In this document: positions 47,383-50,759 of the stretch, one piece after another
Layout of the letters: each line of letters opens with the position of its first letter
How positions within the stretch are numbered: position 1 is the first letter of the stretch
Assembly (NCBI GenBank): GCA_904419075.1
Contig: CAJFQM010000002.1
Span: forward strand, 1-64,000
Source of the DNA: an uncultured Clostridia bacterium
GTDB taxonomy: Bacteria; Bacillota; Clostridia; Christensenellales; Borkfalkiaceae
Length of the DNA stretch: 64,000 nucleotides
Direction: 5' to 3'
The notes under the pieces: model-generated
The model's input: the letters and a program-made list of their open reading frames with translations, nothing else
What the model was told of the DNA's origin: nothing
Database searches by the model: none
Translations under genes and position numbers: made by a program

Positions 47383-48312
47383 TTATCTGTATAATTCCGC
47401 TATTTTTTCCGCCATATCCTTCACGCGAAGCCGAATATTGTCGGGAGAAACCACCTTGACGGAATTTCCCAGCCCCACGATTTTCCGAATGAGCACTTCG
47501 TCGTCGGGCAGACGGACGTCCGCATACCATTTTCCGCCCGCAGGACGCAGATTTTCCCCGCCCAGCCAATCCTGAACGTCAGCAAAGGCCTCTTCGCCGA
47601 CTTCCAGACACACATCTGCGGAAGCGGTTTCGTCCGTCCAGTAATTGAGGGGAATATCCTCCCTGCGGAAAGGGCGGCGGATAAATTTTTCGCCCGTCAG
47701 GACGGCGGTCTCCACTCGTCCGAGGCGGAACAGCCGAAAGTCCCGCGCTTTTCGGCAAAAGGCATAGACGTACCAGATTCCCTGCTTAAAGACGAGTACA
47801 TGCGGCTCGATTTTTCTGTGCGAGCGTTCTCCGACGCGGGAGTTGTAATCGATTTCCAGCACCGCGCAGTCGCGGATGCAGGACTCGAAAAGCCTGAGCT
47901 TTTCCGAAAACATTCTCGTATCGCCCCAAGTTCCGCCGTCCACGAGGATCGTTCCCACCGTTCCCGAAAGCGTCAGATCCCGCGCTTCCGATTTCGCCTG
48001 CGCGGAAAGTTTGCGTTTCGCGTCGAGGAATCGTTCTTCGGGCAGTTGAGAATACATGGCTCCGAGCGCTTCGATCGCGGCTTCGTATTCCTCCTTTGTC
48101 ATGAAATTGACAGGGAGTTTATAGGTATCGGAGATAAAAATTCCTCCGTTTCTGCCCCGTTGCACCTGTACGGGGACGGCGAGGGATAATTCGTCCAAAT
48201 ATCGGTATATCGTCCTTTCCGAAAGCCCGTAACGCTCGGCGATATATTTTGCCGTCAGCTTGCGTTTTGCTAAAAGCTCGAATAAAATGTCCGTCAGTAT
48301 TTCAAATTTCAT
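47383..48312 (-). CDS. WYL-domain helix-turn-helix regulator
   Basis: A 309-residue YafY/DeoR-like protein. The N-terminal winged helix (AKYIAERYGLSERTIYRYLD) is followed by the WYL domain: VLEIDYNSRVGERSHRKIEP, VFKQGIWYVYAFCRKARDFR, RLGRV, and the C-terminal extension domain. WYL domains are ligand-sensing and often control DNA-damage or phage-defence genes. A 20-bp palindrome sits over its own promoter and faces a divergent 61-residue gene. Confidence 0.85.
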   Translation of the reverse strand: MKFEILTDILFELLAKRKLTAKYIAERYGLSERTIYRYLDELSLAVPVQVQRGRNGGIFISDTYKLPVNFMTKEEYEAAIEALGAMYSQLPEERFLDAKRKLSAQAKSEARDLTLSGTVGTILVDGGTWGDTRMFSEKLRLFESCIRDCAVLEIDYNSRVGERSHRKIEPHVLVFKQGIWYVYAFCRKARDFRLFRLGRVETAVLTGEKFIRRPFRREDIPLNYWTDETASADVCLEVGEEAFADVQDWLGGENLRPAGGKWYADVRLPDDEVLIRKIVGLGNSVKVVSPDNIRLRVKDMAEKIAELYR

Positions 48313-48355: not shown

Positions 48356-48400
48356 TTTATAATACTTGACACACGTGTGTCAAGTTATTTATGGTATAAT
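48356..48400. promoter_or_regulatory. Divergent promoter region with a 20-bp palindrome
   Basis: CTTGACACACGTGTGTCAAG (48365-48384) is a perfect palindrome. On the minus strand its TTGACA (48378-48383) is 16 nt from TATAAA (48356-48361), a promoter for the WYL gene. On the plus strand TATAAT (48395-48400) precedes the 61-residue gene, but the TTGACA in the palindrome is 23 nt away, so activation or another -35 is needed. The palindrome is the likely site of the WYL protein. Confidence 0.65.
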
Positions 48401-48436: not shown

Positions 48437-48622
48437 ATGACTGCGGAAAATTTTTCGATGAGGGAATATGAAAAGCGGCTCATACGAGAGCGCAACGAGT
48501 CTGTGAATATGGAGCTGGTGCGTCGTCTTCGGAATCGGACGGAGGAGGAAGCGATGGCGGCGCTGTTGTCTTTGACGTTGTTTCCCGAAAGGGCGGCGGA
48601 AAAGTCGGCGGCATTTGCTTAA
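48437..48622 (+). CDS. Small protein, 61 residues, unknown
   Basis: MTAENFSMREYEKRLIRERN begins a highly charged, helix-forming protein ending in a hydrophobic LLSLTLFPERAAEKSAAFA. Ribosome binding site GAAGGAGAAAA precedes the ATG, and a TATAAT plus the palindrome at 48365 lie upstream. It is divergent from the WYL regulator and probably its target. No family is recognised, and no further gene of the same unit follows before the tyrS promoter. Confidence 0.55.
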   Translation: MTAENFSMREYEKRLIRERNESVNMELVRRLRNRTEEEAMAALLSLTLFPERAAEKSAAFA

Positions 48623-48686: not shown

Positions 48687-48715
48687 TTGACAAAAGGCGG
48701 GAAAGGGAGTAAACT
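48687..48715 (+). promoter_or_regulatory. Promoter of tyrS
   Basis: TTGACA (48687-48692), 17 nt, TAAACT (48710-48715). Expected start near 48722, giving a leader of about 200 nt before tyrS. Confidence 0.65.
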
Positions 48716-48724
48716 GAAAATACC

Positions 48725-48808
48725 ATGAGACATTTTTTAAGCGAAAACGGACGTTATAACATTTATGCGTACGCCTATTGCGGCGGTGCGTTTGTTTGTC
48801 GTGCGTAA
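48725..48808 (+). CDS. Candidate Tyr-rich leader peptide of tyrS
   Basis: A 27-codon open frame from ATG 48725 to TAA 48806-48808. Codons 10-18 read RYNIYAYAY: Tyr at positions 11, 14, 16 and 18, four Tyr in eight codons (TAT, TAT, TAC, TAT). The ATG is within a few nucleotides of the predicted transcript start, and no Shine-Dalgarno sequence lies inside the transcript, so translation would be leaderless (a GGGAG 15 nt upstream would count only for longer transcripts). An intrinsic terminator follows 35 nt after the stop and tyrS 111 nt after it. This is the layout of a trp/his-type attenuation leader. The role is inferred. Confidence 0.6.
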   Translation: MRHFLSENGRYNIYAYAYCGGAFVCRA

Positions 48809-48842
48809 AATCGCGGAAAGTCTTTCGGAAGGGACGAAATCG

Positions 48843-48876
48843 ACGGTTTGCGTGCGCGCAGACCGTTTTGTTTTTT
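48843..48876 (+). terminator. Attenuator terminator in the tyrS leader
   Basis: ACGGTTTGCG (48843-48852) and CGCAGACCGT (48857-48866), 10-bp stem with one G-U pair and a TGCG loop, followed by TTTGTTTTTT. It lies between the tyrS promoter and the tyrS ATG. GTGCGTA (48801-48807, the end of the leader frame) can pair with TGCGCGC (48853-48859), which would break this stem. Confidence 0.75.
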
Positions 48877-48919
48877 CACTAAGAAAAATTCAGACGAAAA
48901 AGGATAAAGGAGTAAATTT

Positions 48920-50113
48920 ATGGCAAACGTAATGGACACTCTCCGCGCGCGGGGATTTATCAAACAGACGGTATTCGAGGACGAACTTTACGAGAAACTC
49001 GGCAAAGAGAGCGTATCTTTCTATATCGGTTTTGACCCGACGGCGGACTCTCTGCACGTAGGGCATTTTATGCAGCTGATCGCCATGCACCACATGCAGC
49101 AGGCAGGGCATCGTCCGATTGTTCTCGTGGGGGGCGGCACGGGCATGATCGGAGACCCTTCGGGGCGCACGGACATGCGCAGCATGATGACGCGGGACAC
49201 GGTAAAGCACAATGTGGAGTGTTTCAAAAAGCAGATGTCCCGTTTCATCGATTTTGAAGGGGAAAACGCGGCGATCGTCGTGGATAACGCGGATTGGCTC
49301 CTGAATCTCAACTATGTGGATTTTCTTCGGGAAATCGGAGCGCATTTTTCGGTCAATAAGATGTTGACGGCGGAGTGTTTCAAACAGCGTCTCGAACGGG
49401 GGCTTTCCTTCCTCGAATTTAACTATATGCTCATGCAGGCTTACGATTTCCTTGTCCTGTATCGGAAATACGGCTGTGCGTTGGAGCTGGGCGGCGACGA
49501 TCAATGGAGCAATATTCTCGCGGGCGCGAATCTGATTCGGATCAAGGAGCAGAAGCCCGCCTATGCGATGACGTTCACGCTTTTGACGACGTCGGACGGC
49601 AAAAAGATGGGCAAGACGGCGAAGGGCGCGGTTTGGCTGGACGAGAATAAGACGTCCCCTTACGAATTTTATCAGTATTGGCGCAACACGGCGGACGAGG
49701 ACGTGGAAAAGTGCATGAAGCTGCTCACGTTCCTGCCGATTTCGGAAATCGAGGAACTCTGCCGTTATAAGGACGAGCGCATCAATGCGGCGAAAGAAGT
49801 TCTCGCCTACGAATTGACGAAAGAGGTTCACGGCGAGGAGAAGGCGAACACGGCAAGGAGTCAGGCCCGTGCGGCGTTCGGCGGCTCGGACGCGGAGCTC
49901 CTCACCAAGGAAGCAAAGGGCGCGGCGACGGTAGTGGACGCGATGGTTTCGGCGGGAATCGCGAAATCCAAAGGCGAAGCGAGACGGCTCATCGAGCAGG
50001 GCGGCGTCAGCGTGGACGAAACGAAGGTGACGGACGTGAATATGCCCGTTCCCGCAAATGAATTTGTTTTGCATAAAGGGAAGAAAGTGCACGTCAAAAT
50101 CGTAGTGAAATAA
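48920..50113 (+). CDS. tyrS: Tyrosyl-tRNA synthetase
   Basis: A 397-residue class I synthetase. [20 protein letters not shown] holds the HIGH-type motif, [12 protein letters not shown] the tyrosine-site block, and [20 protein letters not shown] the KMSKS-type loop (KMGKT). The C-terminal S4-like RNA-binding domain is present ([20 protein letters not shown]). This is the TyrZ/TyrS2-like longer group by appearance. RBS AAAGGAG lies 8 nt before the ATG. Followed by yigZ 13 nt later. Confidence 0.95.
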
Positions 50114-50126
50114 GGACGGCGGGAAA

Positions 50127-50759
50127 ATGGAAAAAGCCGTTCTGACCGTATTCGGACGTCACGAGAGCGAAAAAGTCATCGAAAAATCCCGCTTTATCGC
50201 CTGTTCGGCGCACGTAGAAAGCGAGGAGGAAGCGAAAAATTTCTTGTCGGAGATTCGTTCGAAGCACACTCTTGCCACGCATTGTTGTTATGCGTTTATC
50301 GCGGATAAAACGGGCAACCTCATGCGCTTTTCCGACGACGGAGAGCCGCAGGGTACGGCGGGTATGCCCATTCTGGACGTTTTGAAGAATAGGAAACTGA
50401 CGGAAACGGCGGTCGCCGTCGTCCGCTATTTCGGCGGTATAAAGCTGGGCGCGGGCGGGCTCGTGCGCGCGTATTCCTCCGCGGCGTCCGAGAACCTTGC
50501 GGGGGCGGATATTCGCACGGTGGAAATGTGCAGAGAATACGAAATCCGTGTGGATTACTCGGAAGCGGATTCCGCACGGAAATTCATTTCGTCGGGGAGA
50601 TGCCTACCGCTTTCTGAAAACTATGCGGAAAAGGTATTTTTCACCGTCGCCGTAAAAAAGTCGGACGCGGAGAACTTTCAGTCGGAATTTATCGATTATA
50701 TGCAGGGCAGGGGCGAGATAAAACCGGGGAGGGAATACTATCGCGCTTTCGGACTCTGA
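50127..50759 (+). CDS. YigZ/IMPACT family protein
   Basis: A 210-residue protein with the UPF0029/IMPACT N-terminal domain: EKSRFIACSAHVESEEEAKN, HCCYAFIADKTGNLMRFSDD, GEPQGTAGMPILDVLKN, and VAVVRYFGGIKLGAGGLVRA, then the smaller C-terminal ferredoxin-like domain. Function in bacteria is not settled; eukaryotic IMPACT touches translation control. It is likely co-transcribed with tyrS. Confidence 0.9.
   Translation: MEKAVLTVFGRHESEKVIEKSRFIACSAHVESEEEAKNFLSEIRSKHTLATHCCYAFIADKTGNLMRFSDDGEPQGTAGMPILDVLKNRKLTETAVAVVRYFGGIKLGAGGLVRAYSSAASENLAGADIRTVEMCREYEIRVDYSEADSARKFISSGRCLPLSENYAEKVFFTVAVKKSDAENFQSEFIDYMQGRGEIKPGREYYRAFGL

Follow-up and report, generated by a model that had tools for sequence, protein, structure and literature searches.

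The tyrosyl-tRNA synthetase gene (tyrS) of an uncultured gut bacterium of the class Clostridia (family Borkfalkiaceae) is preceded by a short leader that very probably acts as a ribosome-mediated transcription attenuator, sensing charged tRNA-Tyr and controlling tyrS. The locus lies in the window, that is, the whole stretch of 64,000 nucleotides analyzed here (contig CAJFQM010000002.1 of assembly GCA_904419075.1, positions 1 to 64,000). An original prediction, made from the sequence of this window, had proposed that charged tRNA-Tyr is sensed through translation of the leader, and that proposal is now supported by the clustering of Tyr codons in the leader frame, by the cognate pairing of two alternative helices (1:2 and 2:3), and by the absence of a T-box. 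At the level of sequence, the case consists of a promoter, a short frame, the Tyr clustering within it, a terminator, conservation among relatives, and matched alternative pairings. The features of the locus are as follows.

48687..48715, + strand: sigma-70-type promoter TTGACA-N17-TAAACT of the leader-tyrS transcript (-35 at 48687-48692, -10 at 48710-48715)
48720..48725, + strand: putative transcription start, 0-5 bases 5′ of the leader ATG, placed from the position of the -10 hexamer
48725..48808, + strand: leader peptide MRHFLSENGRYNIYAYAYCGGAFVCRA, 27 codons, Tyr at codons 11, 14, 16, and 18, stop TAA at 48806-48808; homologues in relatives
48741..48753, + strand: segment 1, predicted strand within the leader frame, partner of segment 2 in helix 1:2 (anti-antiterminator); ribosome-free fold and cognate-partner test on 33 leaders
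48800..48817, + strand: segment 2, the stop-codon region CGTGCGTAAAATCGCGGA, predicted strand shared by helix 1:2 and the antiterminator 2:3; folds and cognate-partner test
48842..48856, + strand: segment 3, terminator 5′ arm (48842-48852) and loop (48853-48856), predicted 3′ strand of the antiterminator; folds and cognate-partner test
48857..48876, + strand: segment 4, predicted terminator 3′ arm (48857-48867) and T run to 48876; fold and shuffles
48907..48912, + strand: Shine-Dalgarno sequence AAGGAG of tyrS, by direct reading
48920..50113, + strand: tyrS, tyrosine--tRNA ligase, 397 aa, the regulated gene (TIGR00234, 428.4 bits, cut-off 113.8)
50127..50759, + strand: YigZ/IMPACT family gene directly 3′ of tyrS (TIGR00257, 180.6 bits, cut-off 167.95), possibly co-transcribed with it

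Promoter and leader frame

The promoter proposed upstream of tyrS is present at 48687-48715. Promoter-like and terminator-like sites, taken alone, occur in the region at near-chance frequency (3 versus 2.7 expected for the former; 8 versus 5.5 expected, with a standard deviation of 2.3, for the latter), so that comparison among relatives becomes decisive. The weight of the window promoter thus comes from its conservation before tyrS: a promoter-like pair is kept in all 40 loci of the genus that lack the leader, ending 19-84 bases 5′ of the gene, which argues that the promoter belongs to tyrS.

Farther upstream, a palindrome, ACTTGACACACGTGTGTCAAGT, lies at 48364-48385 between a divergent regulator-like frame (47383-48312, - strand; named by reading) and a 61-codon frame (48437-48622, + strand) for which an NCBIfam search gave no match. 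Similar TGACA...TGTCAAG sequences are also seen 5′ of tyrS in several members of the genus, and the palindrome is possibly an operator.

The frame itself reads as MRHFLSENGRYNIYAYAYCGGAFVCRA, with its extent and its four Tyr codons just as first described, and is what an attenuator calls for: a short leader frame with clustered codons for the amino acid of the downstream gene. A uniform scan for frames 10-40 codons long whose start falls 4-11 bases past a -10 box was applied to 187 distinct tyrS upstream sequences (of 209), loci outside the family included. It returned 48 frames, with 43 rows having at least three Tyr codons and 44 at least two; 20 dinucleotide-shuffled sets gave on average 3.1 frames, 0.1 of them with at least three Tyr codons, and the reverse complements of the same 187 sequences gave no frame of any kind. 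The 43 rows correspond to 40 loci once two double starts (L007 and L147, each counted once) and an AT-rich Clostridium frame taken for chance (L115) are removed; duplicates with the same DNA were likewise removed. Two carriers were added by hand, namely L206, which the scan missed, and L210, whose contig begins at the leader ATG so that its promoter falls outside, and L095 was kept though weak (two Tyr codons, 69% identity). In the 42 leaders with different DNA, Tyr accounts for 183 of 947 residues, encoded by 93 TAT and 90 TAC codons. Since the 43 carriers encode 37 distinct peptides, these 42 leaders are not independent.

Initiation of the leader peptide

Transcription usually begins about 7 bases after the -10 hexamer. 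In the 41 scanned carriers, the leader ATG lies 6, 7, 9, or 10 bases past this hexamer—a spacing that is partly built in, the scan range being only 4-11 bases—and among the genus carriers, for which no range was set, 12 of 13 have the ATG at either 6 or 9 bases. In L030, the frame is longer and opens 5′ of the promoter; the homologous start is the ATG in the same frame that lies at 9 bases. Given the usual start position, this spacing would place the ATG at, or at most a few bases from, the 5′ end of the RNA, with no space for a Shine-Dalgarno sequence in front. Judged from this geometry, which also supplies the start site, the leader peptide is probably leaderless.

Leaderless starting seems to be common in the genome of the window, in which the promoter-plus-ATG pattern occurs 67 times, versus 20 times for the pattern read backwards. 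Among the 50 of these 67 sites that were examined, several open long genes, including one for a LysR-like regulator (names by reading), and many other ATGs open short frames only. An apparently leaderless 49-codon frame beginning MYHYAYYGVLPPEAEKHYG was also seen directly 5′ of an rpoB-like gene (by reading), near 75760 on contig C2 of the same genome (L226). From Clostridioides difficile, extracts of one study report only 15 potentially leaderless genes (PMC7438776).

Terminator and alternative RNA structures

An attenuator also has a terminator between frame and gene, and the candidate here is an 11-bp hairpin at 48842-48867 followed by a T run to 48876. With z = -4.4, this hairpin was matched in stability by 0 of 200 shuffles, and the position first given for it was right to within a base or two.

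For the antiterminator, the original prediction had paired GTGCGTA at 48801-48807 with 48853-48859, thereby taking the loop and the 3′ arm of the terminator. The letters allow this pairing, and a fold with the ribosome on Tyr16 keeps five of its seven pairs (48803-48807 with 48853-48857). When all RNA 5′ of a Tyr18 footprint was removed, 48800-48809 paired with 48847-48856 in ten pairs, three of them G.U, accompanied by pairing of 48811-48813 with 48844-48846 and of 48794-48799 with 48858-48863 (all coordinates of this fold were counted by hand). The modeled antiterminator takes the loop as proposed, together with the 5′ arm, and in one fold it also pairs six bases of the 3′ arm.

In single leaders, the signal of the antiterminator is modest. 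Folded alone, the stretch 48791-48860 is mildly better than its shuffles (z = -1.4, 19 of 200 as good), and so is the leader 48727-48876 (z = -1.9, 7 of 200 as good). Single antiterminators have a mean z of -0.70 against shuffles, with 17 of 41 below -1, and their position profile has only a shallow peak at the stop codon.

The pairings were also evaluated by a swap test, in which the own partner of each leader is compared with the partners of other leaders; the test covered 33 leaders less than 80% identical in segment 2, and its P values were obtained by permutation over related leaders with kinship ignored, with a floor of P = 0.0001 (10000 permutations). For the antiterminator 2:3, the own partner was favored by an excess of -1.46 kcal/mol (P = 0.0004; 33 leaders, kinship ignored), and an excess was found both among the 11 leaders of the genus (P = 0.017) and among the 22 from elsewhere (P = 0.007). 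Shifting the tested stretch upstream by 24 or 36 bases abolished the excess and by 12 bases left a weak one (P = 0.08); a shift of 12 bases downstream gave a stronger excess, though the stretch can then reach the terminator itself. Furthermore, the same test supports the existence of a second alternative helix, 1:2, which was absent from the original prediction: three versions of the test on the 33 leaders gave excesses of -1.65 to -2.48 kcal/mol, each with P = 0.0001. Control pairings of the frame start with the terminator (P = 0.48), of the promoter with the terminator (P = 0.17), and of the promoter with segment 2 (P = 0.70) showed no excess. Covariation of the partners can be read from individual leaders, with CGUACGUAAA facing UUUGCGUAUG in L006, CGUGCGUAAA facing UUUGCGUGCG in the window leader (L004), and GGGUAAA opposite UUUACC in genus g28.

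Hairpins might alternatively act on the initiation of tyrS translation or on its coupling to the leader frame. Such translational control is highly improbable, given that hairpins with a T run are found in 43 of 43 carriers and that the tyrS Shine-Dalgarno sequence lies about 30 bases past the T run, outside the folded stretch.

Ribosome position and the proposed switch

In the transcription attenuator proposed here, RNA polymerase would start at or just 5′ of the leader ATG, and a ribosome would initiate at this ATG without a Shine-Dalgarno sequence. With enough Tyr-tRNA, the ribosome would reach the stop codon and cover segment 2, allowing the terminator 3:4 to form and transcription to stop before tyrS. 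With scarce Tyr-tRNA, the ribosome would stall on the Tyr codons and mask segment 1, segment 2 would then be available for pairing with the 5′ arm of the terminator (2:3, ON), and the polymerase would continue into tyrS. Without translation, helix 1:2 (OFF) would form, making termination the default. Besides encoding the peptide, codons of the Tyr block and those preceding it may also supply the RNA strand by which the antiterminator near the stop codon is sequestered. The start site and leaderless initiation, like stalling of the ribosome and readthrough, are steps that we infer.

These states were modeled for 42 leaders by imposing a 29-base unpaired ribosome footprint on the RNA up to the terminator loop; the average for stalls on Tyr leaves out Tyr codons within the last six codons. 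Mean antiterminator pairing was 0.62 with the ribosome on Tyr, 0.39 without a ribosome, and 0.15 with the ribosome at the stop codon, the last value being low partly by construction because the footprint covers segment 2. A ribosome on Tyr gave more pairing than one at the stop codon in 37 of the 42 leaders, with the reverse in none; it gave more than the ribosome-free state in 27, with the opposite in two (L034 and L158). Two leaders of genus g33 (L155 and L162) formed no 2:3 pairing in this model. The window leader gave modeled 2:3 values of 0.69 ribosome-free, rising to 0.82 for a ribosome on Tyr and falling to 0.01 for one at the stop codon, and in its fold a ribosome on Tyr16 removes helix 1:2, whereas one on Tyr18 leaves it in place. 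With all Tyr codons included, stalls on Tyr outdid those at the remaining codons of a frame in 30 of 42 leaders (P = 0.0007, with a mean difference of 0.07); stalls still further upstream were as good or better, so that the advantage holds mainly over codons near the stop. Modeling thus yields an antiterminator that would be freed by stalling at the control codons, if with a modest signal in single leaders, and a helix 1:2 that would give termination without translation.

At equilibrium, the complete terminator prevails for the most part, a stalled ribosome notwithstanding (mean 0.76), so that the decision has to be made kinetically, as it is in other attenuators.

T-boxes and other synthetase genes

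A T-box is the textbook expectation for a synthetase gene in Clostridia, and the original prediction had remarked that no such element was apparent here. This proved correct: RF00230, the T-box family of Rfam, had no match at the window leader by cmscan at E values up to 1, and no T-box was found in this leader or eight other carriers at E values up to 0.1. The latter settings find three T-boxes elsewhere in the genome of the window, each at an E value of 2.2e-8 or better; these positive controls (L001, L002, and L003) precede thrS, pheST, and cysE-cysS, respectively (gene names by reading). The leader families of Rfam were also without a match, both across the window at gathering scores and in its leader at E values up to 1. 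A significant T-box covariance match in this leader, which the original prediction had named as evidence that would overturn it, has therefore not emerged. A T-box or other tRNA-binding riboswitch that has diverged past recognition draws some support from the T-boxes that the genome does contain, all of which score 51-75 bits, below the Rfam gathering threshold of 93. Even so, such an element is the least probable reading of all, given that the settings that detect three others return nothing at the leader, and that the roughly 120 bases between the putative start and the terminator are largely occupied by the frame.

The premise that synthetase genes in Firmicutes are mostly controlled by T-boxes should be taken with caution. 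Bacillus subtilis tyrS is a founding T-box gene, going by a reference title in PMC1262725, but six outgroup clostridial tyrS loci (four from Clostridium and those of Caldicoprobacter and Pelotomaculum) had no T-box at E values up to 0.1.

The same design was sought at other synthetase genes of the genome, and none of the nine loci covered, named by reading (trpS, valS, ileS, leuS, metG, serS, proS, hisS, and glyS), had a leaderless frame enriched in its own amino acid; upstream of glyS a promoter-ATG match is present, but the frame runs on into glyS. At other genes, the leader was sought with an RNA model built from the 13 genus leaders and run over the 57 genomes of the genus, with 52 candidates scored per genome. 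It returned 13 strong matches, each of them at tyrS and each one a leader that had gone into the model, and beyond these only weak ones, the next best having E = 0.0016; divergent leaders would escape this model.

Distribution and evolution

The genus comprises 57 genomes, 53 of them with a tyrS match, and 53 tyrS upstream sequences from 52 genomes were compared. A homologous Tyr frame (e.g., MKSFFCENGRYYIYAYAYCACASVCRA, MKDFFGENGRYYIYAYVYQGGTRF, and MKTFLCENGMYYIYAYYYCDGERI) precedes tyrS in 13 of these loci, followed by a hairpin usually of the CGGTTTGCGC type and then by tyrS; the other 40 have no leader before the gene. In the family, 398 genomes were searched and 373 had a tyrS match. From six other genera, 60 upstream sequences were taken from the best-scoring tyrS matches rather than at random, four of them shorter than 300 bases (L189, 6; L190, 90; L210, 192; L194, 232). 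Tyr-rich frames were found at 28 of these 60 loci, with carriers in five genera (g33, 4 of 5; g34, 3 of 3; g29, 18 of 39; g27, 1 of 1; g28, 2 of 2; g26, 0 of 10). Frames rich in Tyr directly after the tyrS promoter are thus present in six genera of the family, and the conservation for which the original prediction advised looking among related tyrS leaders does exist, at 13 of 53 loci within the genus and 28 of 60 beyond it.

Between genera, the peptides diverge almost completely (MKHFLRQNGMYAIYAYYYRKCNAPFFHA, MKNISVTLAYVYYFYYRG, MKHEMSLAIYGKYLYRGEASGCFCA, MKHSLAVAIYGYAYYVVA, MKNYFAYVTTAYYAAYYSCDDTLLRRAKAK, and MNIYAIKNGYVYYCAYYRYGMYVL), and the Tyr clusters persist. This divergence disfavors a nascent-peptide arrest, in which the leader peptide, with free tyrosine or tRNA, would stall the ribosome by sequence-specific contacts in the manner of TnaC. 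Conservation of non-Tyr residues within the genus (ENG/ENE before Tyr11, and IYAY) would fit such an arrest; across genera, however, little is common but Tyr, and pairing in helix 1:2 may account for part of the conserved codons, which leaves this explanation very unlikely.

A hairpin with a T run accompanies the frame in all 43 carriers (for L005 and L006, the scan chose another hairpin and the homologous one was set by hand). Retention of the terminator where the frame is not conserved, which the original prediction had regarded as evidence against itself, is accordingly not the rule, but it does occur at four loci. A search for hairpins without a frame flagged 10 of 74 non-carrier upstream sequences; five (L054, L160, L168, L176, and L200) are second copies of carriers and one (L101) was taken as unrelated. 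The remaining four—L020 and L151 in the genus, and L071 and L075 among the g29 relatives—have a promoter and a terminator-like hairpin before tyrS and no frame, L020 and L151 being the two longest of the 40 genus upstream sequences that lack the leader. They are likely relics of the attenuator. The same four loci, together with the many relatives without any leader, could be taken as signs of a constitutive partial terminator, with the short frame unimportant and nothing being sensed. Such a terminator would leave unaccounted for the 43 rows with at least three Tyr codons versus 0.1 expected, the terminator at 43 of 43 frame loci, and the cognate 1:2 and 2:3 pairings, and is judged just as unlikely as peptide arrest.

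On a tyrS tree of 46 rows, which leaves out the carriers known only from upstream stretches (L147 and those among the 60 sequences from other genera), 10 changes are required to account for the 17 carriers, with at least six of them forced by well-supported branches; shuffled carrier labels need 14.0 on average, and as few as 10 in 6 of 500 shuffles. Descent of the leader in a single line is unsupported by this tree. Since the frames are homologous within the genus, repeated loss of an old leader is favored, each loss presumably having left a bare promoter; horizontal transfer of tyrS with its leader may be an alternative. A plasmid search gave no match. The fullest version of the attenuator reading—a Tyr-specific, leaderless synthetase attenuator found family-wide in Clostridia, with a frame that doubles as the strand sequestering the antiterminator, ancestral to the genus and repeatedly lost to a bare promoter—stands at about an even chance.

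Other arrangements were observed before tyrS. L205, L206, and L210 (genera g27 and g28) have a second promoter-like pair between terminator and gene, which could give a basal, unattenuated transcript. L187, L193, and L203 (genus g26) share a similar GC-rich leader of about 130 bases, apparently structured (GCGGGGG ... CCCCCGC), in which neither an Rfam match (E values up to 1) nor a Tyr-rich frame was seen; this leader is possibly a different control RNA for tyrS.

Comparison with known attenuators

Close parallels come from other phyla. In the ilvBNC operon of Corynebacterium glutamicum, the start codon of the leader peptide IlvL (MTIIRLVVVTARRLP) is placed one base away from the start of transcription, three alternative hairpins are described, and mutation of the leader start codon cuts expression by 80% (PMC11857589). 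The tyrS leader resembles it in its predicted alternative hairpins and probably in a leader-peptide start near that of the RNA; ilvBNC differs in responding to branched-chain amino acids and in being a biosynthetic operon of Actinobacteria. The transcript of Sinorhizobium meliloti trpL (rnTrpL) likewise begins with the leader-peptide ATG (PMC7298713), as is proposed for the tyrS leader, but it concerns Trp and biosynthesis genes in Alphaproteobacteria, and both its peptide and its RNA also act in trans. Mycobacteria have leaderless short frames with poly-cysteine that mediate amino-acid-responsive attenuation (Canestrari 2020, via PMC9094748); these are rich in one codon like the tyrS leader, which is probably leaderless as well, and differ in the amino acid (Cys) and in belonging to Actinobacteria. 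At the cys leaders of Mycobacterium, obvious terminators were not seen in an earlier study (PMC1262725).

Leader-peptide control of synthetase genes is itself known, with attenuators at pheST in gamma-proteobacteria and at trpS and leuS in Streptomyces (PMC1262725), these being for Phe, Trp, and Leu rather than Tyr. As extracts of the same source put it in 2005, no synthetase gene of Firmicutes was under classical attenuation (PMC1262725). Within that phylum, leader-peptide attenuators rich in His have been predicted in the Bacillus cereus group, Peptostreptococcaceae, and Erysipelotrichales (PMC9413887, section 8); they belong to histidine metabolism genes and not to a synthetase, and a leaderless start is unmentioned in that section. 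A search of open-licence papers returned no leader-peptide attenuator for tyrosine or for a Firmicute synthetase.

Overall, the mechanism is classical, and its use for tyrS in this uncultured gut family of Clostridia looks new. Such an attenuator would run against the 2005 generalization on Firmicute synthetases (PMC1262725), would make tyrosine one more amino acid sensed through leader peptides, and would take leaderless leader peptides to a group outside the Actinobacteria and Alphaproteobacteria, in which those found have been described. Being short and having no Shine-Dalgarno sequence, leader frames of this kind are easily missed in annotation. If leaderless starting is true, the switch would depend on the state of the 70S ribosome as well as on Tyr-tRNA. 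With T-boxes before thrS, pheST, and cysE-cysS beside a leader-peptide attenuator at tyrS, the two strategies would be comparable in one organism.
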